A stretch of 26,310 nt of DNA from a virus. A program made the translations under genes and the position numbers. Positions 2,656 to 25,796 of this stretch are shown here, piece by piece. Numbering within the stretch: the first letter of the stretch is position 1; each line of letters begins with the position of its first letter. The stretch is taken from positions 1 through 26,310 of the IMG/VR virus record IMGVR_UViG_3300027973_000196, one strand, 5' to 3'. The notes under the pieces are model-generated. The model worked only from the letters and a program-made list of their open reading frames with translations. It was not told the origin of the DNA and made no database searches.

Positions 2656-3768
2656 TTATAACTCCGCAGATAGGGCTACTGACGCAGTTGAATCATTACT
2701 ACCCATTAGTTGGTATGTTTTTTCCGATGTCAATCCTGAACTTGTACAACTTAGGCTTGATGTAAAAGGGTTAGAATCACCTGAAGGTACTGTAACTGCT
2801 GAAACTGAAAATACTGTTGCCCCTGACCAAAGCCCTACTGCACCAGTTGTAGTAACTGAAGAAGGTATAGTTCTCATTGGTACTTGCATAAATATAGTAA
2901 TAAAAGCAGTTGTTGATGAGTTTGCAGGACCTACACCCATTCTTGCATACTGAGTTGCACCACTAATTTTATAAAAATACCGTTGGCAAAGACTTAATTC
3001 AGTAGTGTATTGACGATACTCAAATCCAGTAGCACTACTTCCTACTTCTAGTTGAACACCAGTAATGTAGAAGGTTGCCCCGCTTGTTCCTACTACGGAT
3101 GTTGAACCAGTTGGTTGCGAAGCCCAAGTTCCACCAGTCCATGTGTTTGCAGTTCCGCTAAATGTTGAGCCAGCCCCAAGGCTAAAATAAACTTGAATGC
3201 CGTTACCATTATCTGTTAGCCAAGTTCCAGTAGTATCACCAGCAATTGTTACTGACTTTTGTTCCCAAGTGTTTGCGGCAGAAATTGTGTAACTATATGG
3301 GTAACTTCTATTTGCGGCAGAATTAAACAACGAACCACCAAAAGTTCCAGTTAAAGAACTGCGAACCCAAAACGATAAAGTAACTGTTTTTGCGTTAGCA
3401 GTTCCCCACCCTAAATCAGCAACATTTAACCCCTCAATAGACTGCCTAAATCCAAAATAATCACCAGTCAAAACCGAATATGCAGATGATGAAGTTACAC
3501 CTAAATAATTAGTAAATCCTACTGGTGGAGTAACAGAACCAGCATTTTGTTGCGTTGTTAATTTAGATGTTTGCGCTAATGAAAAATACCATCTGTCTAA
3601 TGTATAACTACCACTAGTAGGTGTAACACTAGCACCAGCATTTCTTTGGTCAATAACCATTGCACCATTGATAATGCGATTCTTCATAAGGCTTGCGTTG
3701 CCGCCGCCTAGTATGCCGCCAGGAGTTGTAGTCGTTACTGTATCAACATTGATATTTCCGTAAGGCAT
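2656..3768 (-). CDS. Tail fibre / carbohydrate-binding-like structural protein (370 aa)
   Basis: Residues 30-60 contain NRIINGAMVIDQRNAG and, after a short stretch, YTLDRW. This motif pair marks a large family of phage and prophage fibre proteins with a jelly-roll, carbohydrate-binding-module-like fold. The middle (ADLGWGTANAKTVTLSFWVR, GVQLEVGSSATGFEYRQY) matches the rest of that fold. The end (290-370) is Ser/Thr-rich and probably more variable. No catalytic motif is visible, so a depolymerase role is not supported. Both ends are coupled to tiny genes (54 aa upstream through an ATAATG overlap, 58 aa just downstream). The likely role is binding to a cell-surface glycan. Confidence 0.7.
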   Translation of the reverse strand: MPYGNINVDTVTTTTPGGILGGGNASLMKNRIINGAMVIDQRNAGASVTPTSGSYTLDRWYFSLAQTSKLTTQQNAGSVTPPVGFTNYLGVTSSSAYSVLTGDYFGFRQSIEGLNVADLGWGTANAKTVTLSFWVRSSLTGTFGGSLFNSAANRSYPYSYTISAANTWEQKSVTIAGDTTGTWLTDNGNGIQVYFSLGAGSTFSGTANTWTGGTWASQPTGSTSVVGTSGATFYITGVQLEVGSSATGFEYRQYTTELSLCQRYFYKISGATQYARMGVGPANSSTTAFITIFMQVPMRTIPSSVTTTGAVGLWSGATVFSVSAVTVPSGDSNPFTSSLSCTSSGLTSEKTYQLMGSNDSTASVALSAEL

Positions 3769-3932: not shown

Positions 3933-4477
3933 TATAAAGTCCTTGCTAAACAGCCTTGTAGCCTTACCTGTGATTGAACTGTTGAATATGATGCTAGTGC
4001 TGTGTAATCGTAAAAGTATGCGTAAAGCTCTATTGTGTCTCCAGTACCGTTCATAGGTACTAAGGTAGTTATAACTGGACTAAACGAAGCCCCTGTGCCA
4101 GAAACAAAAGAGTTTTCAGTACTTAAATACGTACTACCATTTTTATAAATTAGTAAGGTAAAACCTATTTGCCTACCTGCAGTAAAGTCTATTCTTATTT
4201 GACCAGATATATTGTAGTAACCAGCAACTGTGGGTGTAAATGTAGATGATGCAAAATTATTATTTGTGTCGTATTGTTCTGTTTGTAATAATATTTTTGT
4301 AAGTGTATTGTTAGTTATAGTTTGAGATGATGATGGACTTGCACTAAAAGCTGGCATATTACCGCTAACCATTACATCACCAGTAGCGGCTGGTAGCGTA
4401 TGCGTAAAGTTACTAGCCGTTGCTGGCTCATTGATAGTTACTGAACCACCACCTGAAGAATTAAGTACGATGCTCAT
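3932..4477 (-). CDS. C1q/TNF-like jelly-roll fibre protein
   Basis: About 181 aa. After a short leader (MSIVLNSSGGGSVTINEP and THTLPAATGDVMVSG) comes a C1q-like trimeric jelly roll: MPAFSAS, then LLQTEQYDTNNNFASSTFTP, TVAGYYNISGQIRID and GDTIELYAYFYD. The 'AF.A........F.......F.P..AG.Y......' pattern is the C1q signature and is common in phage fibre tips. The frame opens upstream at a GTG (4489), but the ATG at 4477 forms an ATGA overlap with the stop of the main fibre gene and is preferred. It likely sits at or near the tip of the stalk made by the upstream gene; direct attachment is inference. Confidence 0.7.
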   Translation of the reverse strand: MSIVLNSSGGGSVTINEPATASNFTHTLPAATGDVMVSGNMPAFSASPSSSQTITNNTLTKILLQTEQYDTNNNFASSTFTPTVAGYYNISGQIRIDFTAGRQIGFTLLIYKNGSTYLSTENSFVSGTGASFSPVITTLVPMNGTGDTIELYAYFYDYTALASYSTVQSQVRLQGCLARTL

Positions 4478-6027
4478 AATATTATCCACCTTTGACCACT
4501 TGGTACGGTTACACTTGCGCCGCTATTGATTGTTACGGGGCCAACACTAAAACCATTTTTGCTGGTAGTGAGTGTATAACTTGCCGTAACTGTTGTCGCA
4601 TTTTCAAAGATAACACCACCAGCTTGTGCGCCACCTACTCCACCCCAGGCACCACCAACATATCCCTCAAAGGATGCAAGCGAGGAATTGTATCTAAAGT
4701 ATCCATTGGCCGGTGAGCCATCACGCTCGCCAGTTGTACCCGATGGAATAATTGATGATCCAGTAGCAGATGTTTTTGAAGTAATCGTTGATAGATTGAT
4801 TGATGCCGCACTAGCCGCCGCCGCAGTCGCACTACTGGCCGCGGATGTTGCTGAGTTGCTGGCATTAGTGGCAGAAGTGGCGGCGTTTGTTGCGGAAGTT
4901 GTTGCGGCAGTTGCCTGAGTTGTGGCCGTCGATGCTGAATTGCTTGCGTTGGTTGCACTTGTTGACGCATTGCTGGCAGAAGTCGATGCCGCGCTTGCAC
5001 TACTAGCCGCGTTGGTTGCACTTGTTGATGCGCCGCTTGCTGACGTACTAGCATTAGACGCCTGGGTTGTTGCAGTTGACGCACTATTACTGGCCGACGT
5101 TGCGCTTGTTGCCGCATTCGTCGCAGAAGTTGTAGCGCTAGTTGCCTGAGTTGTTGCAGTTGAGGCAGATCCGGACGCGCTTGTTGCTGAATTGGCCGCG
5201 TTCGTTGCTGAAGTTGACGCATTGCTGGCCGACGTACTAGCGCCACTTGCAGAAGTTGACGCATTTGTGGCCGATGTTGAGGCGTTTGATGCAGAAGTAG
5301 AGGCCGCACTAGCTGAACTAGCGGCCGCACTTGCTGATGCCGCGGCGGCAGTAGCAGATGAACCGGCGGCGGCCGCGTCCACTACCAGGTCCCACTTAGC
5401 GGAATCCGCATTCGAACTAATTGGCGTTGTGCCGACAGAAGTATGAGCAGTATTAGCGCGATATACGTTTGAATTACTAGAATCTTTTACCAGGTCACGG
5501 ACGGTATAAGCCTGACCAGCGGCCCAGTTACCACGCCAGTTACCAATCTCTTCACCAACAGTAGGATTACCAGTCGAATCAAATGCCAGGATCTTTCCAG
5601 CGCGGGAAGTTTGCACCGGCAATACCATATTGATAGAGGCCGGGTCCGTTACTGGAGCCAAGATCGCACGACCCAAAGCTTCAGCATTTTGCTGATTGAA
5701 AATGGTTTGCTGGTCCAGCTCTAAGTTTAGAGATGCCGCAGTAAAGTCGCCACCAGTTACGTAATCAGATGCACGGGTAATATCCCTGGCACCCACAATC
5801 GTGATCCTCTTAGTGGATCCAGGAGCAGTAACAAAGGTGACTGAGCCGGTACCGTTCGCATTGATCGTTACCGTGTAATCAGTTGTCAGCGTTTTGAGAG
5901 TTGAATCAACATACACGTCGATGTCAGTTTGCGCCAATATTTCAAAGGTAAATGCGTACGGCCCTACACCAGCCGAGCCGGTATAGACTGCGCGTCGCAC
6001 TACGGGTGATATTGGAAAATCAGCCAT
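4474..6027 (-). CDS. Tail fibre protein with T7-type N-terminus and Ala-heptad stalk
   Basis: 517 aa. Residues 1-140 match the T7 tail-fibre N-terminal domain that binds the tail (YTGSAGVGPYAFTFEI, DYTVTINANGTGSVTF, TAASLNLELDQQTIFNQQNA). Residues 164-213 look like a small carbohydrate-module-like insert (GNWAAGQAYTVRDLV...VYRA...AKW). Residues 222-403 are 26 perfect seven-residue repeats with Ala at positions 4 and 7. Residues 404-517 form the end, including GTTGERDGSPANGYFRYNS and a beta-rich finish of the type 'SYTLTTSKNG...GPVTINSG...VPSGQRW'. The C-terminus has no obvious large receptor-binding domain, so recognition may rest with the fibre-like proteins encoded just downstream. Another gene joins it by ATGA at 4477. 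Confidence 0.88.
   Translation of the reverse strand: MADFPISPVVRRAVYTGSAGVGPYAFTFEILAQTDIDVYVDSTLKTLTTDYTVTINANGTGSVTFVTAPGSTKRITIVGARDITRASDYVTGGDFTAASLNLELDQQTIFNQQNAEALGRAILAPVTDPASINMVLPVQTSRAGKILAFDSTGNPTVGEEIGNWRGNWAAGQAYTVRDLVKDSSNSNVYRANTAHTSVGTTPISSNADSAKWDLVVDAAAAGSSATAAAASASAAASSASAASTSASNASTSATNASTSASGASTSASNASTSATNAANSATSASGSASTATTQATSATTSATNAATSATSASNSASTATTQASNASTSASGASTSATNAASSASAASTSASNASTSATNASNSASTATTQATAATTSATNAATSATNASNSATSAASSATAAAASAASINLSTITSKTSATGSSIIPSGTTGERDGSPANGYFRYNSSLASFEGYVGGAWGGVGGAQAGGVIFENATTVTASYTLTTSKNGFSVGPVTINSGASVTVPSGQRWIIL
4819..5364 (-). repeat. 21-bp-period repeat encoding 26 Ala heptads
   Basis: The coding DNA repeats with a 21-base period across 546 bases, encoding heptads such as STSASNA, STSATNA, SNSASTA and TTQATSA. 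Ala is fixed at positions 4 and 7 and Ser or Gln at position 3; there is no break in phase. A higher-order pattern is visible: the pair SNSASTA-TTQA occurs at the 14th-15th and the 21st-22nd heptads, with a near copy (SGSASTA-TTQA) at the 10th-11th. Codons vary between copies, so this is protein-level repetition kept by selection more than a recent DNA expansion. The 3-4 spacing of Ala fits a tight, probably trimeric, coiled coil. Confidence 0.85.
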
Positions 6028-6077: not shown

Positions 6078-8573
6078 TTATTTCCTTCTTGGCGGGGGTT
6101 CCGCCGTTATTTTCTCAAAATCCGGGGCGCGTTCAGGTTCGGTATCGCCTGGCGCCCACCAATAGCGTTGGCCAGTTTCTCGTCTGTAACGTGCTTCCAT
6201 TTCCCGCATTCGTTGTTTAGCTTCAGGATCGCCCCAAATCTGTAAACGATCCAGGAGTTGACGCTCTAATGCCAGGCGCAAATACCATATTGAGGACCCT
6301 GGGGTATAGCGTCCACCGTATGAAATCAGCTCACGCATGAAGTGGGTATCCTTGCCAGTTGCCAATTCCTGAAGGTTGCCGATAGTTAAACGGCGCGTAT
6401 CGTCCAAGAATCCTACTACCGGGCCGGCCACGGTTTGCTCTAGGCCGCCGCCAAAACGGTTTACGTCATTAAATAGGAAGTCTCCCAAGATACCCAGGCC
6501 ACCGCCCTGGAGCAATGCCGCACCCCAAAACTCAGGGGTCATTACCGTACGGGGATCGCGCCCCTTGGTAACTTCTTTAAGTTGCATGGCCATGGCGCCA
6601 AATAGAGTTGTCGAGATAACTAGGTCAGCAAAGTACGCACCCTTCTTACCAAAGTTTTCCTGGTTCACGGCGCGCATTACGTGAGTGTTTAATAACGTAA
6701 CTGGGAAATTCTTATACATAGCGAACGACCTAGACAATTCACCCACAAACGTACCAGGGCGCGATTCTCCTACCAGCATGACGCGACCACGAACAGATGC
6801 CGATGGTACGGCAAACTCCGTCTCAGTCTGAATCATCTCTAGCATACGTGTCGCTAGATCGTCAGCGCGTCCTGGTTGCAGATCATTACGTAAGGCAATC
6901 TCTTCAGGGCGTAGGAATGTTGCGCCTTCGTGTTCGTATAAACCGGAAGAACGGATGACATCCCAATTACCCTCGGCCATGCCGTACCTGGTCAAAGTAT
7001 CCTGGAGCGGCTTGTCTAACTCATTGAATTTCTTACCAGCATTCTCGGCCAGGTATCCCATAAATTCCATACCAAAGGCCCAACGTCCGGCCTGGGTCCA
7101 TGGGGATAACCCTGTAATCCGCATGACGGTATCTGAAATGCGACGCGTGATTTCAGGGCCAGTCATATCACCTACAAAACGTGCCTGGGCAGTCGCAACG
7201 CTGGTCCAGTTTTCTGCGATCAATCCCAGGCGCGATGCCAGGCGTCCTTTTTCGTCAATGTTCAGCGGCACCAGGTTATCCATTACTCGCTTGATTACAT
7301 CGGATGCGGGTATTCCCGATGCTTTAGCGGCAATGCGCTGGAAGTTTAAGTCAGTCAATGCAGATACCGCGGCCGCGCCAAGTTGCGCCGATTGTAGTAT
7401 TTGACGCAAGCCGGCAAAGCCCCTGGCTACGTTGCCATCGACTGGCGATGCAGTAGATCCATTTAGGATCGCGTACATAGAATCAAACATTCCCATCTGA
7501 GAGTTGGCCTTATCGACCATCTTTCCTTCAGGATTATTTGCTTCTTTAAGCTTGGCGTCTTGCATGACGGTTTGATGGATATAGCGAATAGTCGCATTAG
7601 GGTTAGGCCCTAGTATCTCCATCATGGATATATCCCGTGACATTCCTTCTAGGTGATTAACCATGGTAACGAACGGTTCGGGATTTCCAAATTTCTCCTG
7701 GTACTCTAGCCAAGCATCAGCATTCTTAAATGATAAGAATCGATGATCCTGGTTACGGTTAGCCAGGGACCGGCCACCACCAGCTCCGGACGGTTTAACC
7801 TTATTCCATCCTTCCGTCGCAATAGAATCAAAGACTTGTGCTAGGGCCAGCTCTAATCTTTCGGGCGTAAACTTTAGGCCGCTACGCTCATCAATCATCT
7901 TTTGAGGATCTAAACGCTCGCGAATAAAGTTTGTCCACTCTTCGCGCCCAGCCTTGCGTACAAGCATCGAATCATGGATCTGAGGCATACCCCAATCCTT
8001 ACGATTTGGAATGGCACCACCGGCCGCATTAAAGCGCTGGCGGGCATAATCGGCCGCAGTTGACCAGGACTGTGCTAATTCTTTTGCGGCGGCCGATCCG
8101 GTATCTTCTCCGAATACTTCGCGCACTAGGTCCTTGGCCATAGCTTTATTACCCAGGCTACCAGTTGCGCCGCGACGTCTAAAGGTTGCCAGGACGTCAT
8201 CCATCTTAGAATAGATTTGACCGAGTACGGCTTTGCGCCTGGCTTCCACGTTGGAATACTTGGCAAACTCATCTCGATCTAGTAGTGCCTGGGCCGCTTT
8301 ACCCAGGCTTTCGCCATTGGCATACTGGTTTAAATCAAAACTAATCTTTTGCCAGTTGCGGATCTGCAACATTTTGACGCGCTTACTTTCAATGGCTTCT
8401 TTTTGCAATGCGTCAAACGTATCCTTGGCGGCCTGATTGCTGGCCTGTTCAGGACCCATCTTTGTCGCGTACTCTGCCTCTAGCTCATCAAATAGGCCGC
8501 GGGCTTTTGCCGCCTGGTTAGCTGAGATCTTGCCTTCGTTCTCGCCATTATCAATACATTCTCTAAAGCTCAT
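6078..8573 (-). CDS. Large internal/ejection-type virion protein (831 aa)
   Basis: 831 aa, largely helical. The N-terminal 150 residues are charged helices (SFRECIDNGENEGKISANQA). The middle holds conserved-looking stretches such as NRNQDHRFLSFKNADAWLEY and DISMMEILGPNPNATIRYIH. The C-terminal third contains hydrophobic segments around 645-660 (LVISTTLFGAMAMQ) and 684-698 (ALLQGGGLGILGDFLF), then TPGSSIWYLRLALERQLLDR and GQRYWWAPGD. The last blocks recur in large phage virion proteins that follow the gp16-like gene and may contact or cross the membrane during DNA ejection. I chose the ATG at 8573 over the GTG at 8582 because it makes an ATGA overlap with the upstream stop and has AGGGTG six bases before it. 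The precise role is inferred. Confidence 0.65.
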   Translation of the reverse strand: MSFRECIDNGENEGKISANQAAKARGLFDELEAEYATKMGPEQASNQAAKDTFDALQKEAIESKRVKMLQIRNWQKISFDLNQYANGESLGKAAQALLDRDEFAKYSNVEARRKAVLGQIYSKMDDVLATFRRRGATGSLGNKAMAKDLVREVFGEDTGSAAAKELAQSWSTAADYARQRFNAAGGAIPNRKDWGMPQIHDSMLVRKAGREEWTNFIRERLDPQKMIDERSGLKFTPERLELALAQVFDSIATEGWNKVKPSGAGGGRSLANRNQDHRFLSFKNADAWLEYQEKFGNPEPFVTMVNHLEGMSRDISMMEILGPNPNATIRYIHQTVMQDAKLKEANNPEGKMVDKANSQMGMFDSMYAILNGSTASPVDGNVARGFAGLRQILQSAQLGAAAVSALTDLNFQRIAAKASGIPASDVIKRVMDNLVPLNIDEKGRLASRLGLIAENWTSVATAQARFVGDMTGPEITRRISDTVMRITGLSPWTQAGRWAFGMEFMGYLAENAGKKFNELDKPLQDTLTRYGMAEGNWDVIRSSGLYEHEGATFLRPEEIALRNDLQPGRADDLATRMLEMIQTETEFAVPSASVRGRVMLVGESRPGTFVGELSRSFAMYKNFPVTLLNTHVMRAVNQENFGKKGAYFADLVISTTLFGAMAMQLKEVTKGRDPRTVMTPEFWGAALLQGGGLGILGDFLFNDVNRFGGGLEQTVAGPVVGFLDDTRRLTIGNLQELATGKDTHFMRELISYGGRYTPGSSIWYLRLALERQLLDRLQIWGDPEAKQRMREMEARYRRETGQRYWWAPGDTEPERAPDFEKITAEPPPRRK

Positions 8574-11500
8574 TTTACGCACCCTATCAAGCGCTCTAAC
8601 ATAGACTTGTCTTGTTCAAAGTCTGCCAAAATTTCTCTTACAGTTGTCACTTCCGATACTCTTTCACCAGTTTGTGGATCAATTCTTTCCGCTACCGGTA
8701 TCTCTAAATCCATTAGATCCTGATTGCGCTTGCCGTTCGTGCCGATCTGTGCTAATGTTAAGTCAGGAGTGTCCTTTATGAAATCATCTAAAAAAGTAGA
8801 ATTTCTCGATGTTGAAGGTATCCCGGTGACTTTAGGTTCGGTTCCCGGTTTCGCTGGCCTTTGCGCCGCCTGGGATAAATCTTCCCCAAGAGCCTTCCCA
8901 GCTGATTCAGCGTTACGTAACGGTGCGCCGATTGATAAGGCCGAGTTCGAACGATTGAGAACGGCCGCTAACGCTTCATCGTAAGCCGGCTTCATTTCAG
9001 CATTCATTGAATCAATTCTTGCTTGTTCCGCTTTAGTAGGTTGACGATTCTCGCTAGAGATCATACGTAACATTTTGTTGCGTTCAGCATATAGATCGTG
9101 ATAGTTATCTTTGACGGCCATAAATTCCGGGACGCTAATTTGTATCTCAGCAATATGCCCTTCAATCTCAACATTCATTTTAATGTCGCGATAACCGCCA
9201 TCCATTGATTTCATTTGTGGATCTAATAGATTTCTGAATCCACTATCTAAAACATTATGTACGTTGCGTATTTCCTTTAGCGCGACGCCAGCTTGTTGAA
9301 ATGTATCAACGATTAATGTTGCTCTTAGTATGTCTTTGATTTGACTTGCATCACCAGCGTAATCAAATAGAATTTTTTCTACTGCACGGCTTGATCCTTT
9401 TAGATCTGCACCTTTGTATTCTGCATTGACCAGGTTAGCAAGTTCACGGTTTACTCTATCAAAATTTTCTTTTCTGATTGCCGCGTCCTGGTACAAGCCT
9501 CGCAACACTTCCTGATCTTGTGGCGCAAGCTTAATGATGTCATCTTCATTTAATGACTTAGCAACATACTCATCAACGGTAATCGGTTTTCCGCCGCCAG
9601 GGATCTCATCTAGCAATGAGTTTTGCATAAGATCGCCCTGGGCTTTTGCACCAGCTGATCCAGGGCCTTCGTCAAAAGTTTTTAGCTCGTCTGCGCCTGG
9701 TTCTGCGATTCGATTGTTTTGCGCCGGAGTTGTGAAATCGCCGCGATCTCCGCCATTTGGTACCCTTTCATAACTCCCGTCCTCAATTGCTCTCCGGACA
9801 CTTTCGGTAAATTCGCGGACGTAAGCTTCAGTTTTGGTTCCGCCCCCGTCTTTCCACGCCTTGGCGATTCGGGTGAGATTGTCTGAGATGGGTCCCCGGA
9901 CGTTTGCGTTATTTTCAATGATAGCGATTGCTTTGCCATAAATAGCCTCTTTTTCTTCGTTAGTCATTTTGGCCAAAGTGTTGCCGGCCTTCTCAATATC
10001 AGTTGCATTTTTTACCAGGGTCGCAAACAGTTCGCGATCCTTACGCATTTCTTTCATGGCGCGATCAAGAATCTTGGCCCGCTCCAAGAATAAGCTTTCT
10101 GCAATATCTTCGTCGCCAAATAATCCGCCTTGTTCGGTTTTTATAAAACCGGCCTCTCTTGCCTGGCGTACGATTTGCTCTGCCTGGATCGCATTCGCTG
10201 GTTCCAGGCGTTTAAGTAATTGAAGGATTGCAAGTTGCTGAGTTTCTTCTGTAATGTACCGACCAACAATTGCGCCATAGTGTGGCGGCACTACATCATT
10301 AACGACTGCGTTAAATGCTTTAGGACCAAGCGTCGCAAGTTCATTTGCTTGTTTTACAAACTGCGAACGTGGCGGCAATGACTTAATTAGTTCAGGCGCG
10401 TCTCTTAATATCTTGGCCGCATCGACCAGGGTGCCGGTGCCTTCTGCTAGGTTCTTGCCAGCGGCCGTTGCCCTGGCATAACCAGGATCAAATCCATCTT
10501 TTTCGCGAATCTTAAAAGCATAAATTTGAATGTCTTGTGTTGGGTCAGCTTCTTGCAAGCGCTTTGCCAGGCCCAGGCGTTGATGGCCGTCAGCAATAAA
10601 TGTCCGTCCGTCTGCAAATTCATAAACGATTGCCGTATTGGCTTTAACTGGATCCCACTTGCTGATGTCCTTTAATCTTTCTGTAACGCCCAGGACATCG
10701 CCACCAGCTTTAAACTGAAATAGCTCTGCATTGACCAGGAGATCTTTTGGTTTGTACGCAAAAATCTCATTGTTTAGGTTGTCATGAAAATAAATATCGG
10801 TAGAGCGAACGATTGCGCTTTCAGGCGGCACAGTTGTGATCTTAGTTGAATCACCATTGTTTACTGCGTTATAAGACTGATCGATGCGGGCATTATGTTC
10901 TAAGTTGCCGGTGTCATCCTTTAAAACATTGCCTTGATTTGTAGTGTCATAAATACCATCCATCTCTTTCATCAGCTTTACATCGGGATCCATCTCATAC
11001 GGACGACCCTCTTTAGCGGCCTTGGCTTTGCCTAGTGCCTCAATGCCATTGATGAGTTGATTTTTAGTAAATTGGAATGCGGGTTTTGCACCCATTAAAA
11101 CGCCGGTGACTGCGCCAGCTCCAGCGGCGGCCATTCCCACGTTAGTAAAAAATGTTTTGTAATCGTATGGAAGATCGAGTTGCTTATACCAGTCTGCGAC
11201 TTCTGTTTGAATAACCGCTTCTGATCCAGCTCCAATGACTGCCTGGCGTAATACTTCTTTTGCAATATTGCTAGATCCACCACTAACTACCATGGCCGCA
11301 AGGTTTGGCGGATCAGTTATTGATGAGACTATGCCACCAGCCATTTCACCTAAAAATCCAGTAAAGGTTTGGCGAGATGCTACATCAACGTTAACGTCTC
11401 CGGATTTGATTGCGCTCTTTTTTGCTCTTTCAAATATTGCGTCATTGTCAAGACTAATCAAATCCGGAAAAACGTCAGGTTGTTGTTTGACAAAATCTAG

Positions 11501-11791
11501 TATTTGCTTTGATGAATAGTTGTAACCTCTAATTGGCGTATCAGGGGATGCCGCGTAACCGCCAAGATAGTTACCTGGGTTATTAAACTTTTTCCCAGTT
11601 TTTTCTTGTATCTCTTTGACAATTGGATCCCATTGCTCACGTAAATTTACGGGGCGTGAATCACTACGGTTAAGCTTTAAAGTTGCCTGGTATGCCGCAT
11701 CATAGTTTTCAGAAAAGCCAGTATCTTCTCCACCACCAAGAGGTTTGAATGGAGTTGCCGTTGGGTTTATTTCGTCAAAAACGAAACTCAT
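8570..11791 (-). CDS. gp16-like ejection protein with ParB-like and RelA/SpoT-like segments
   Basis: 1073 aa; by position and size the counterpart of the T7 gp16 internal core protein. Residues 145-235 are Gly/Ala-rich and hydrophobic (EMAGGIVSSITDPPNLAAMV, AAAGAGAVTGVLMG), as in proteins that form the ejection channel. Residues about 345-430 resemble the ParB/DdrB-like fold, with DGRTFIADGHQRLGLAKRL at 394-412. A helical part follows (437-670). Residues 790-905 look like a RelA/SpoT nucleotidyltransferase: K798-x7-K806, IKDILRATLIVD with D820, GGYRDIKMNV with Y867, AEIQIS with E882 and Q884, and H898. D820 and E882 line up with the Mg-binding Asp and Glu of (p)ppGpp synthetases. Lys replaces the usual His after the GYR motif (K871). 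No lytic transglycosylase motif is visible. Domain calls are by eye; activity is not shown. Confidence 0.75.
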   Translation of the reverse strand: MSFVFDEINPTATPFKPLGGGEDTGFSENYDAAYQATLKLNRSDSRPVNLREQWDPIVKEIQEKTGKKFNNPGNYLGGYAASPDTPIRGYNYSSKQILDFVKQQPDVFPDLISLDNDAIFERAKKSAIKSGDVNVDVASRQTFTGFLGEMAGGIVSSITDPPNLAAMVVSGGSSNIAKEVLRQAVIGAGSEAVIQTEVADWYKQLDLPYDYKTFFTNVGMAAAGAGAVTGVLMGAKPAFQFTKNQLINGIEALGKAKAAKEGRPYEMDPDVKLMKEMDGIYDTTNQGNVLKDDTGNLEHNARIDQSYNAVNNGDSTKITTVPPESAIVRSTDIYFHDNLNNEIFAYKPKDLLVNAELFQFKAGGDVLGVTERLKDISKWDPVKANTAIVYEFADGRTFIADGHQRLGLAKRLQEADPTQDIQIYAFKIREKDGFDPGYARATAAGKNLAEGTGTLVDAAKILRDAPELIKSLPPRSQFVKQANELATLGPKAFNAVVNDVVPPHYGAIVGRYITEETQQLAILQLLKRLEPANAIQAEQIVRQAREAGFIKTEQGGLFGDEDIAESLFLERAKILDRAMKEMRKDRELFATLVKNATDIEKAGNTLAKMTNEEKEAIYGKAIAIIENNANVRGPISDNLTRIAKAWKDGGGTKTEAYVREFTESVRRAIEDGSYERVPNGGDRGDFTTPAQNNRIAEPGADELKTFDEGPGSAGAKAQGDLMQNSLLDEIPGGGKPITVDEYVAKSLNEDDIIKLAPQDQEVLRGLYQDAAIRKENFDRVNRELANLVNAEYKGADLKGSSRAVEKILFDYAGDASQIKDILRATLIVDTFQQAGVALKEIRNVHNVLDSGFRNLLDPQMKSMDGGYRDIKMNVEIEGHIAEIQISVPEFMAVKDNYHDLYAERNKMLRMISSENRQPTKAEQARIDSMNAEMKPAYDEALAAVLNRSNSALSIGAPLRNAESAGKALGEDLSQAAQRPAKPGTEPKVTGIPSTSRNSTFLDDFIKDTPDLTLAQIGTNGKRNQDLMDLEIPVAERIDPQTGERVSEVTTVREILADFEQDKSMLERLIGCVK

Positions 11792-14046
11792 TTGATGCCT
11801 TCTCTTTGTTTAACGCGTTCAGCAAGATCCCTAAAGTTAACTGTTAGAGCGGATCTATCTTTGATGGTAAATGCTAGTGGGCTTGTTTTGCCGCGATAAT
11901 CTTCGTAATACCATACGGCGCGATCTGCGTCGATAAATGCGGGATAACCCTTACGTAAGCGCTCAATAGTAAACTTTCTGCCCTGGTCATCTTCGGGCAA
12001 ACCATTAGATACTGCGGCAAAATCATCATACGTTGCGCGCTTAATGATGTCTTTAAAACTGTCCTGGGCAACGTTGCCTGGAATTGGAATGCGTGTACCT
12101 TGATACTCAATGATGCCGCCATAGGGTTTGCCATTTTTAGCGACTGTCATTCCGGATGCTTCCTGGAATGCTTGCTTATACATATCATCATCAAATACAG
12201 TTTTACCGGCAACAATAGCGCGCTGAGTGTAAATATTATCAGCCGTTGAAATAATTGCAGAGCGTGTCTTAGGTGCAAAAGCATAGGCGCTACCTAATTG
12301 GTCAGCAATAACGCTTTTCTTGGCCATGGCATCGCCCGATCCTTCGAATGGTTTATTGCCGGCTTGAAGTTGCTTCATACCATTTAATGAATCGTACACG
12401 GTTTGCTTGTTGGCACCGGCAATAACTAATCCACCAGCATGAGCAAACTCCGGCGCAAACTTAGAGATCTCGCCCATAGCATTTCTTGAATCTTTTCCGA
12501 ATCCTTGATTCATTACACCAAGCAATGCAATTTGCTGGTCAGGACTAGCGCTTTGCAAAAATGTAGTTAATGCGCCAGCTTCATCCTGGGAGAAGTATTT
12601 GGGCGTTATGCTCATGTTTGCCGCAAAAGTTTTAGATTGCGTAATGCGCTCGCTAATTTGTTTTGTCAGATCTACTGGGGCCGCGGCAAAATTAAGCGTC
12701 TTAACTTCGGTAAATCCAGTTTGATTCATGTAGCTAACCGGATCTTTTTCCAGCATAGATGTTTTATGGCTTAATGATTTTTGAGCTACATCAATCAGCA
12801 TTGCTTGTTCAAGAGACGCGCCACCAGTTGTTTTTGACTGTGCATCGCGAACCCAGTCGCCCAATTGCATGGGTGACATTTTATTAAATCCAATAGAGTT
12901 TTGACGCAATACACTTAGGTAATTAACCTGGCGCATAGTTGGATCATTTGCCGGTAATCCCAGGCTACGGGCGCGGCCCATTATTTCATTGACTACGCCT
13001 TCGCTTGGTACCTGGCCAAGAGTAATAATGCGTAATGATTCGCTTACGTCCGTCTTTAACTCTGTACGCAACGCTCTAAACTGTGCGTCCCTGGAGCGTA
13101 GATCCGCCTCAATCTCATTGACCAGGGCTCCCATTCTGTTTACATCAATGCCGCGAGTAACGCGATCTTGCTTTAATGGATTACCTTCTTTGTCGTATAG
13201 ATCGCCAATAGGACCACGGCCCAGGTCGGCCTTGACTTGTTTTAAGAATGCGGCTTTGTTAGGAGACTTTTCATATTCTCTTCTAAATCGCGCCATGTGA
13301 GCTTGCTCTGCAACGCTTTGCATTTGACGCTCTACTTCTACTGGACCAAAACCACCGCCAATTGCAAATTGTTTTAGAGCTTGTAATTCCTGAAATAGCA
13401 TTGCCTCTGAGCCGTTAACTCCGCTTGACATGATACGAATTGCGTCCTGGCCACGTTGATCTAATCCGGCCAGGGTTGTTGCTTTTAATTGTTGTGCTAC
13501 ACGATCGTTATGCTTTTCTGAAATTTCCAAGAAACCAACATTTTTCATGCGATCTAAATCGCCAGCTATGCGGCCACGATATTTAGGATCTACTAAATCT
13601 ACTACCGATTCCAGGCCATCTCTTACACCAGCCGTATCCGCTATAAATTGAATTGGATCGGCATTGGGGTCATTCTTATAGGCCTGGATTTTTTCGCTAA
13701 CAAGACGACGGCCATCGTTTTGCAGTTGCAAAATAACCAATTCATTAGCTTGATCGTATGCGGCTTTGTCAAAAGCAGAGCGCGGCATTCCACTTTCTTT
13801 TGTAGATTGCAATACTTGTTTTGCTTTTTCTGCCGTATCTACTGACGCGCGACCTTGTTCCTCGGCTTGTTCCATACCAATCTTGCCGGCATATTTAATT
13901 ACCGCATCAAGCGAGCGTTGTTGCGATTCAGCCAGGTTTCGGCTTTCGCGCATAATCGGGACATATTCCACGCCAGGCATTTGAGCTGGCCTAAATGGGT
14001 CAATTGCGACGCCTGTTGATTGATACCTTGGAAGTCTCTCTGCCAT
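11788..14046 (-). CDS. gp15-like internal virion protein (752 aa)
   Basis: 752 aa, close to the 747 aa of T7 gp15, and in the same place between gp14-like and gp16-like genes. It is mostly helical and polar, with long charged stretches (GMEQAEEQGRASVDTAEKAK, KHNDRVAQQLKATTLAGLDQ). The C-terminal region (ATYDDFAAVSNGLPEDDQGR ... RKGYPAFIDADRAVWYYEDY) resembles the end of gp15-type proteins. T7 gp15 forms part of the inner core and of the tube through which DNA enters the cell. Its ATG is two bases after the gp14-like stop, and its own stop overlaps the next ATG (ATGA). The sequence itself is not distinctive enough to name without the context. Confidence 0.7.
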   Translation of the reverse strand: MAERLPRYQSTGVAIDPFRPAQMPGVEYVPIMRESRNLAESQQRSLDAVIKYAGKIGMEQAEEQGRASVDTAEKAKQVLQSTKESGMPRSAFDKAAYDQANELVILQLQNDGRRLVSEKIQAYKNDPNADPIQFIADTAGVRDGLESVVDLVDPKYRGRIAGDLDRMKNVGFLEISEKHNDRVAQQLKATTLAGLDQRGQDAIRIMSSGVNGSEAMLFQELQALKQFAIGGGFGPVEVERQMQSVAEQAHMARFRREYEKSPNKAAFLKQVKADLGRGPIGDLYDKEGNPLKQDRVTRGIDVNRMGALVNEIEADLRSRDAQFRALRTELKTDVSESLRIITLGQVPSEGVVNEIMGRARSLGLPANDPTMRQVNYLSVLRQNSIGFNKMSPMQLGDWVRDAQSKTTGGASLEQAMLIDVAQKSLSHKTSMLEKDPVSYMNQTGFTEVKTLNFAAAPVDLTKQISERITQSKTFAANMSITPKYFSQDEAGALTTFLQSASPDQQIALLGVMNQGFGKDSRNAMGEISKFAPEFAHAGGLVIAGANKQTVYDSLNGMKQLQAGNKPFEGSGDAMAKKSVIADQLGSAYAFAPKTRSAIISTADNIYTQRAIVAGKTVFDDDMYKQAFQEASGMTVAKNGKPYGGIIEYQGTRIPIPGNVAQDSFKDIIKRATYDDFAAVSNGLPEDDQGRKFTIERLRKGYPAFIDADRAVWYYEDYRGKTSPLAFTIKDRSALTVNFRDLAERVKQREGIK

Positions 14047-14048
14047 AA

Positions 14049-14588
14049 TTACGTACTCTTATCTGTTACTGGGGCCGGCGAACTTCTGCCAGACATTGAA
14101 GAATACGCCGCGGCCTGGCCAACCGTGCCAATTGCCTGGTACAAGCCAGCTTGTTTTGCCGCCGCTCCTGATGCGCGTAAAATGTCTGCGTTTGCCGATC
14201 CGGAATATCTATAAACGTTGGCCTGGAATCCAGCAGATGAAGATGCTAATTTTGCATTTTCCTGGGATAAATCAAAATCGGTATAACCTTCGCGTAATGC
14301 GTAAGTTTGTAATGATCCAGCTGATCCGCTAAATGGATCAATTGCACCGGCACCAGCTCTCGCTCTTACAGTTGAGAGTGTGCGATTAATGTTTACAAGT
14401 GTTTTAACGCCTTCCTGGCGGGCGCGAATTGCCTCGGTACGCCCTTGCATTTCAGCTTGTTGTGCTTGAAAACCAGCCTGGATGTTAGCCTGTTCAGCCT
14501 GGGCGTTGTAAATTTTTTGCTGAGTTTTGCCCTGTTCATATTGCCCATAGGCGGATACCAGCATTGCGGCGATTGCGACGGCGGCCAT
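14049..14588 (-). CDS. gp14-like internal virion protein (179 aa)
   Basis: 179 aa. It begins with a hydrophobic Ala-rich stretch (MAAVAIAAMLVSAYGQYEQG), then a Gln-rich helix (KIYNAQAEQANIQAGFQAQQ) and small-residue-rich segments. T7 gp14 has 196 aa, a similar Ala/Gln-rich helical make-up and the same place after the tail tubular B gene. In T7 this protein leaves the virion first and enters the outer membrane. The gene lies two bases after the tail tubular B stop and two bases before the gp15-like start. The call rests on order, length and composition together. Confidence 0.7.
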   Translation of the reverse strand: MAAVAIAAMLVSAYGQYEQGKTQQKIYNAQAEQANIQAGFQAQQAEMQGRTEAIRARQEGVKTLVNINRTLSTVRARAGAGAIDPFSGSAGSLQTYALREGYTDFDLSQENAKLASSSAGFQANVYRYSGSANADILRASGAAAKQAGLYQAIGTVGQAAAYSSMSGRSSPAPVTDKST

Positions 14589-24956: not shown

Positions 24957-25394
24957 ATGTATTTTATGTTTATGGTTTATTTCAAGCAAATAAAAGTTAC
25001 TACCGATAGCAAGCCCATGTTGGTGCGCTTGCAGAAAACTTGTTTGCCCCACGATAAGCTTTGCACTTCAAAGACTGCCGTTTGGTGGGTCGGGTTTGAT
25101 GGAGATACCCCCGTCGCGTTTTGTGTTTTATCGCCATCGCGCAAGTGGGCGGACACGGCATACCTGGCAAGATCCGGCGTTATCCCGGCATATCGCGGCA
25201 AGGGGTTACAAAAACGCATGATTACCATCCGGGAGAAATACGCCAAGCGTAAAAATTTCACCTGGGTTATTAGCGACACTACCGCTAACCCGCCCAGCTC
25301 CAATAGCTTGATTAAACGGGGTTATCAATTGTTCGAACCCAGCAGTCCATGGGCCTGGGTGCATAGTCTTTACTGGAGAAAGAGGATTAAATAA
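24957..25394 (+). CDS. GNAT-family N-acetyltransferase
   Basis: Up to 145 aa. The acetyl-CoA motif is ARSGVIPAYRGKGLQKRMIT (71-90) with RGKGLQ as the pyrophosphate loop. VISDTTANPPSSNSLIKRGY (104-123) holds the usual Asn and 'NSxxxxxGY' end. The gene is on the opposite strand to almost everything else and is followed without a gap by an HNH gene (TAA then ATG). Start codons at 24957, 24966 and 24972 are all possible and none has a clear ribosome site. The substrate is unknown; the enzyme could modify a host or phage protein or a small molecule. Confidence 0.8.
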   Translation: MYFMFMVYFKQIKVTTDSKPMLVRLQKTCLPHDKLCTSKTAVWWVGFDGDTPVAFCVLSPSRKWADTAYLARSGVIPAYRGKGLQKRMITIREKYAKRKNFTWVISDTTANPPSSNSLIKRGYQLFEPSSPWAWVHSLYWRKRIK

Positions 25395-25796
25395 ATGCCT
25401 TATAAGGATCTCGCAGTCCGCAGAGAAAAGAACAAAGAGGCAAATAAGCGCTGGTATCAGCGGAATAAAGAAAAGCACCAAAAAACTACCATTAAAAATA
25501 AACGGGATTACCGTCAACTGTGGATGGAGTTTAAGGCGACGCAAGATTGTACGTTTTGCGGATTCTCTCACCCGGCCGTTATTGACTTTCACCATGTCAT
25601 TCGCACGGAGCCAAAGTTTTCCGTAAACGAATTGGCGCAAAATAGCTCGTACAAGCGCGCCATGGAAGAAATTAAAAAGTGCATTCCGCTTTGTGCTAAC
25701 TGCCATCGCATTCTCCATTGGCAAGAGGCGCAAGATGGCAAAGAAGATCGCCGAAAGCGTCGCAAAAAGAAGAAAAAGACCGACGGGCATCCATAA
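25395..25796 (+). CDS. HNH endonuclease
   Basis: 133 aa. A basic N-terminus (RREKNKEANKRWYQRNKEKH) is followed by CTFC (C52, C55), IDFHHVIRTEPKFSVNEL with H66/H67, EEIKKCIPLCANCHRILHW (C100, C103, H104, H108), and a Lys/Arg-rich tail. The four Cys form the zinc site and DFHH...CHR...H the active centre of the HNH fold. Such genes act as homing endonucleases or packaging nucleases. Here it sits on the plus strand and ends base to base against a minus-strand gene. It is not next to the terminase, so a homing or accessory role is more likely than packaging. Confidence 0.85.
   Translation: MPYKDLAVRREKNKEANKRWYQRNKEKHQKTTIKNKRDYRQLWMEFKATQDCTFCGFSHPAVIDFHHVIRTEPKFSVNELAQNSSYKRAMEEIKKCIPLCANCHRILHWQEAQDGKEDRRKRRKKKKKTDGHP

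Follow-up and report, generated by a model that had tools for sequence, protein, structure and literature searches.

A RelA/SpoT-type synthetase domain in an exchangeable slot of a predicted podovirus ejection protein

Why would a short-tailed phage carry an alarmone synthetase-like domain in one of its virion proteins? The question is raised by a 1073-residue protein encoded on the minus strand (8570..11791) of a viral DNA stretch of 26,310 bases (IMG/VR record IMGVR_UViG_3300027973_000196, positions 1-26,310), hereafter the window. An initial annotation had placed a RelA/SpoT-like nucleotidyltransferase at 9075-9423 within this protein. The open reading frame is present, the segment corresponds to residues ~790-906 and all residues named in that annotation occupy the positions assigned to them. 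Three points go beyond it: a slot with alternative cargoes, a ParB-like middle region and an alarmone hydrolase that is frequent in related phages.

According to an AlphaFold2 model, residues ~749-953 (8933..9547; window coordinates are on the minus strand unless stated otherwise) form a RelA/SpoT-type synthetase fold with the catalytic aspartate and glutamate and the basic residues of the ATP site retained. The location given initially stands, while its limits (residues 790-905) were too narrow. The model, covering residues 735-965 and computed on an alignment of 30 relatives, displayed a mean predicted local distance difference test score (pLDDT) of 90.0 and a predicted TM-score (pTM) of 0.86. 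Its best Foldseek matches were the exported alarmone synthetase SaEAS (PDB 8VX3) and the type VI effector Tas1 (PDB 6OX6), each with an expectation value (E) of 4.3e-7, and VIA-align gave Z scores of 14.6 for RelQ, 14.1 for RelP, 13.8 for SaEAS and 13.7 for Tas1, unrelated rows reaching at most 7. The superposition on Tas1 extended over 167 residues at 2.7 Å and 24 % identity. CapRel (Z 11.8) and FaRel2 (Z 6.7), which are directed at tRNA, were weaker. The proposed fold was thus recovered (E 4e-7, Z 13.7-14.6), and of the enzyme types initially considered the RelA/SpoT superfamily held, with Tas1/Apk rather than the tRNA-directed enzymes as the nearest group by sequence.

Sequence comparisons designated the Tas1/Apk toxins, which make (p)ppApp, as the nearest known enzymes, and the sequence and structure matches together lie well outside chance expectation. 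A phmmer search of the PDB with a 166-residue stretch of the domain alone found Tas1 at 6e-5; a family profile of 30 relatives matched Tas1 at 1.2e-31, followed by (p)ppGpp synthetases at ~1e-3, and no tRNA-directed toxSAS was among its matches up to E = 1. Polyubiquitin matches in the PDB search were discarded as artefacts produced by summing a weak similarity of 43 residues over repeats. The window domain alone had no Pfam match and did not reach the PF04607 cut-off, which the homologous domain of Bordetella phage PHB04 does pass (30.6 versus 27 bits).

The catalytic residues were highly conserved. The donor-site basic motif includes K798, R802 and K806 (9374..9400), syn2 (DILRAT) the catalytic D820 and R823 (9323..9334), the syn3 acceptor motif GYRDIK Y867 and K871 (9179..9196), and syn4 (EIQ) the catalytic E882 and Q884 (9140..9148). 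K798, R802, K806, D820, R823 and E882 were invariant in a 13-member alignment reaching down to 25 % identity, and Y867 and Q884 were kept in at least 90 % of it, so that the conservation of D820, E882 and Y867 on which the initial annotation depended was indeed encountered. In a 30-member alignment, K798, K806, D820, R823 and E882 remained invariant and R802, Y867 and H898 (9098..9100) were nearly so. The ratio of nonsynonymous to synonymous substitution rates (dN/dS) in the domain was 0.05-0.13, as expected of purifying selection.

The domain lies in a slot whose content varies between related phages. This slot (residues ~732-1025; 8717..9598), delimited by comparison with the zeta-cargo relative L013, is situated between a conserved middle region (residues ~355-700; 9692..10729) and a conserved C-terminal tail (residues ~1026-1073; 8573..8716), which runs VREI..EQDKSMLERLIGC. 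A search of viral contigs with the middle region yielded 140 confirmed relatives, 80 of which were retained. Complete relatives displayed the conserved middle, the conserved tail (VREI..EQDxSMLDRLxGC) and a variable part between them. Among 65 relatives, the slot held a RelA/SpoT-like domain, a zeta toxin (PF06414, 8e-12 to 1e-22), an ADP-ribosyltransferase (ART)-like domain or nothing. In the close relative L013 (8001-11324; G004:C1:10063-13386), a zeta toxin (PF06414, 6e-18) replaces the RelA/SpoT domain. The ART-like cargo at L096:9018-9968 displayed an FYHGT motif, with DUF3990 (2e-4) and ART-PolyVal (2.5e-3) matches both under cut-off; empty slots left tails of 75-140 residues, as in Dunaliella virus SI2.

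Exchange of these cargoes appeared to be frequent. A maximum-likelihood tree built from 65 middle-region rows required at least 20 cargo changes, and its well-supported branches alone forced 10 for RelA and 9 for zeta. Relatives L074 and L071 share 92 % identity over residues 1-847 and 83 % in their tails, with unrelated cargoes between; L079 (RelA) and L084 (zeta) displayed the same cassette pattern. When the window was compared with L011, which also carries a RelA cargo, synonymous divergence (dS) was 1.25 in the domain versus 0.22 in the middle region and 0.07 in the tail, which suggests replacement of the cargo by a divergent allele. Since related phages have another toxin, or none, in this slot, the group seems to exchange the enzyme that would be brought into the host. 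The cargoes of L074, L076 and L110 (WG[FW]R type) are only tentatively assigned to RelA/SpoT, at 19-25 bits to the family profile; that of L074 had no meaningful match among solved structures, its KRas matches being taken as chance. By eye, a second ParB-like stretch (LLDGNSTYAIA) seems to precede the RelA/SpoT-like domain in the C-terminal inserts of L109, L060 and L056.

The first part of the conserved middle region is ParB/Noc-like. Modelled with AlphaFold2, residues 320-720 (pLDDT 77.5, pTM 0.63) matched Noc at 1e-4 and ParB at ~1e-3 in Foldseek, with low TM-scores and over only part of the model; the conserved ADGHQR motif is consistent with a ParB-like domain of the kind present in other polyvalent proteins. 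With this region and the synthetase, disparate domains are united in one viral polypeptide, as in polyvalent proteins generally. The middle region was also encountered in a giant protein of Ruegeria phage 45A6 (L015:3796-12981), followed by helicase, methyltransferase and GNAT domains in a DarB-like arrangement. The window's relative G001 encodes near its replication region a small protein (L128:4709-5296) with an LPD29 domain (PF18847, 2.7e-21), which large polyvalent proteins are known to carry.

Would such a protein enter the host? Family-profile matches and gene order revealed in the window a minus-strand structural module of a short-tailed phage. It starts with terminase (24.4-22.5 kilobases) and head-tail adaptor/portal genes and continues with a T7-capsid-assembly-like protein (PF05396, 1e-22), the major capsid protein (PF19821, 6e-76), tail tube and nozzle, a gp14-like internal virion protein (14049..14588; phrog_418, 3e-7; PF24072, 1.3e-4, under the Pfam cut-off) and a 752-residue protein in the gp15 position (11788..14046; phrog_992 head protein, 3e-14). 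The 1073-residue gene follows in the position of gp16, an ejection protein, and precedes an 834-residue virion structural protein (6078..8582; phrog_684, 1e-182) and the fibres. This order matches T7 genes 11-17, and the gp16-position gene of cyanophage P-SCSP1a (Autographiviridae) contains a homologue of the middle region. Judging from gene order, the protein is probably a polyvalent ejection protein that is packaged and injected with the DNA, in agreement with the ejection-type context already recognised in the initial annotation.

The substrate of the putative enzyme is less easily deduced. Guanosine enzymes display SxH at syn3 and AVR at syn2, while Apk2 toxins display GxN and RYT (PMC12226406). 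The window domain has RAT at syn2, which resembles RNT of Tas1 and conforms to the R-x-T shared with Apk2, and DxK at syn3, where GYRDIK replaces the GYxSxH of canonical (p)ppGpp synthetases (RSH, RelQ, RelP) and does not display the GxN signature of the Apk/Tas1 adenosine 3'-pyrophosphokinases. The lysine after GYR, singled out initially as unusual, proved to be a family feature, since a lysine at the position of K871 recurs across divergent cargoes of the group (GYFDRK, SYFDKK, NFFDRK). Because syn2 is Tas1-like and syn3 carries neither signature, the domain is called Tas1-like here without an assigned product.

It is common for related phages to carry a gene for an alarmone hydrolase. A PF13328 hydrolase was found in all records of at least 27 kilobases with a GYRD-type cargo (G001, G002, G003, G005 and G006) and in two fragments with that cargo (G023 and G024), seven records in total, and in none of 13 records of at least 27 kilobases with zeta, empty or ART slots. 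In G001-G003, the gene is located between YqaJ-like and serine-recombinase genes; in G004, which carries a zeta cargo, both neighbours are collinear and the hydrolase gene is absent. The window stops ~1.9 kilobases short of this site, and its 98 %-identical relative G001 has the gene. The G001 hydrolase, an HD protein encoded at 2698-3219, matched alarmone hydrolases generally (best 3.6e-16), and the phage of L074, with its weakly RelA-like cargo, harbors beside the matching recombinase a hydrolase with a 5.8e-34 match to a (p)ppApp hydrolase of solved structure. The link between RelA cargo and hydrolase is suggestive, as an association rather than a proven pair, because the positive records belong largely to one clade.

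Taken together, we favour, with a probability of roughly 0.6, an injected protein with a swappable cargo, which in the window would be a Tas1/Apk-like 3'-pyrophosphokinase. The 1073-residue protein would be packaged in the virion at the gp16 position and enter the host together with the DNA. Its conserved parts (the N-terminal part, the ParB-like middle and the C-terminal part) would serve packaging and entry, and its internal slot would present the exchangeable enzyme. From entry onward, the window cargo would transfer pyrophosphate from ATP onto the 3'-OH group of an acceptor, most probably a nucleotide of adenosine or guanosine; ATP and GTP would be drained and alarmones raised, and host growth or the replication of rivals would be shut down. 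In close relatives, a phage hydrolase made in the infected cell may later end this effect or protect late virion production. A broader form, in which gp16-position proteins of podoviruses are the chassis of a polymorphic effector system, nucleotide- or NAD-using enzymes of the RelA/SpoT-, zeta- and ART-like types being recombined into the slot and, in part of the group, the injected synthetase being paired with a phage hydrolase from a distant locus as a timer (on-signal injected, off-signal expressed), and in which the product may be neither (p)ppGpp nor (p)ppApp, is proposed tentatively, at somewhat less than even odds.

Several observations weigh against the favoured reading. The 1073-residue protein matched no gp16-named family by sequence; such proteins diverge quickly. 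No immunity gene adjoins it in the window, where its neighbours are virion proteins, unlike the situation in Apk2. The acceptor motif, being neither SxH nor GxN, leaves the predicted substrate uncertain. Hydrolase-positive records mostly form a single clade, and the gene was absent from the recombinase site in the phages of L028 (G008, GYRD cargo), L109 (G013) and L082 (G057), the latter two with YFD-type cargoes, which refutes a strict tracking of RelA cargo by the hydrolase.

It is unlikely that the cargo acts mainly against competitors, arresting or killing cells or stopping rival phages and plasmids in them, a role suggested for the MuF toxins that temperate phages carry, instead of aiding the takeover of a productive host. 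RelA/SpoT, zeta and ART cargoes are typical of polymorphic toxins and are frequently swapped, as in an arms race; however, none of the RelA-cargo records in the group of the window showed an integrase, so that no lysogen population would need protection, and killing the host at entry would gain the phage little without an off-switch. Pyrophosphorylation of tRNA 3' ends as by toxSAS enzymes, blocking translation with no alarmone production, is less probable still. The shared superfamily, the atypical acceptor motif and the similarity to CapRel and FaRel2 speak for it, and small alarmone hydrolases can reverse the tRNA modification of toxSAS too, but the family profile reached Tas1 at 1e-31 and not a single tRNA-directed toxSAS up to E = 1, the Tas1, SaEAS and RelQ/RelP structures matched better, and the hydrolase of L074's phage resembles a (p)ppApp hydrolase. 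A non-catalytic fold kept for binding or structure, as the change from SxH to DxK and the missing Pfam match of the domain alone might indicate, is very improbable given catalytic residues retained across highly diverged cargoes, a dN/dS of ~0.1 and alternative slot cargoes that are also enzymes.

The synthetase cassette was not confined to this chassis, as it occurred in three other virion-linked proteins. In L031, it is located C-terminal to a MuF/SPP1-gp7-like head protein; the window protein itself had no PF04233 or phageSPP1_gp7 (MuF) match. In phage PHB04 (L014:5077-8037), the gene directly after the portal contains the RelA/SpoT domain (PF04607, 4.4e-7), an HD hydrolase is encoded two genes beyond and a calcineurin-like phosphatase also follows; the whole looks like a toxin-immunity cluster. 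In the phage of L030, the domain is in the gene after the portal and shares the linker that follows it.

The full 1073-residue protein gave no match in a Pfam search. As for the remainder of the window, a tail fibre (4474-6027) displayed a weak carbohydrate-binding module (CBM_5_12, 5e-4, under cut-off), a holin of the gene-transfer-agent type was found at 374-787 (PF11351, 6e-11), and two genes at 24957-25796 (plus strand), one for a GNAT acetyltransferase and one with a weak HNH match, adjoin the terminase genes on the opposite strand. T7-type RNA polymerase (PF00940) was not matched, which was uninformative since control genomes were equally silent. No host link was obtained: a scan of bacterial genomes found just two relatives, both distant (in Nitrosomonas and Sphingomonas), and plasmids gave two.

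The synthetase domain and the general idea are already known. Tas1/Apk1, a (p)ppApp synthetase and the closest relative of solved structure by sequence, has the fold, the catalytic residues and the syn2 R-x-T in common with the window domain; it differs by its PAAR/type VI delivery, its immunity protein and its GYSGVN (GxN) at syn3. SaEAS (PMC12691689) acts outside its maker. The MuF toxins of the Apk2 type, which prophages encode, produce (p)ppApp and come with immunity proteins that act as hydrolases or inhibitors (PMC12226406). Like the proteins described here, they fuse an alarmone synthetase to a phage head or ejection protein, with a hydrolase from the same phage; they have a MuF carrier, temperate phages, a C-terminal toxin and adjacent immunity genes, whereas the window group has a gp16-position carrier, an internal slot and a hydrolase gene that, where present, is distant in the genome. 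In MuF proteins of the Bxa type, ART, deaminase and alarmone synthetase domains replace one another.

Iyer et al. 2017 (PMC5512222) predicted that injected polyvalent proteins contain RelA/SpoT and ART domains and that host shut-down can be alarmone-based; they also placed zeta kinases in conjugative elements and in fusions with MuF, and listed ParB-type domains in polyvalent proteins. The RelA/SpoT cases there concern spirochaete and epsilonproteobacterial (pro)phages and MuF, in contrast to the podovirus gp16-position carrier reported here, and neither such a carrier nor single-slot swapping was found in the passages searched. The T4 Alt protein treated there, a head-packaged and injected ADP-ribosyltransferase that modifies the host, follows the same idea of a packaged enzyme; enzyme and carrier are different, and cargo swapping is not known for it. 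The slot was not described in the searched literature on internal virion proteins with polymorphic toxin, zeta or RelA domains, a search that most subscription papers lay outside. As far as this literature shows, what is new is a podovirus chassis in the gp16 position, its internal slot and the many swaps recorded there, the DxK motif and the distant hydrolase locus.

If this reading is true, podoviruses apply the swapping logic of polymorphic toxins with the DNA-ejection machinery as delivery route, and an alarmone-type signal may reach the host from the phage at the very first moment of infection. The pairs L071/L074 and L079/L084, closely related chassis with different cargoes, form a directly testable set. 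Many internal virion proteins now called hypothetical would then be predicted to carry host-directed enzymes.
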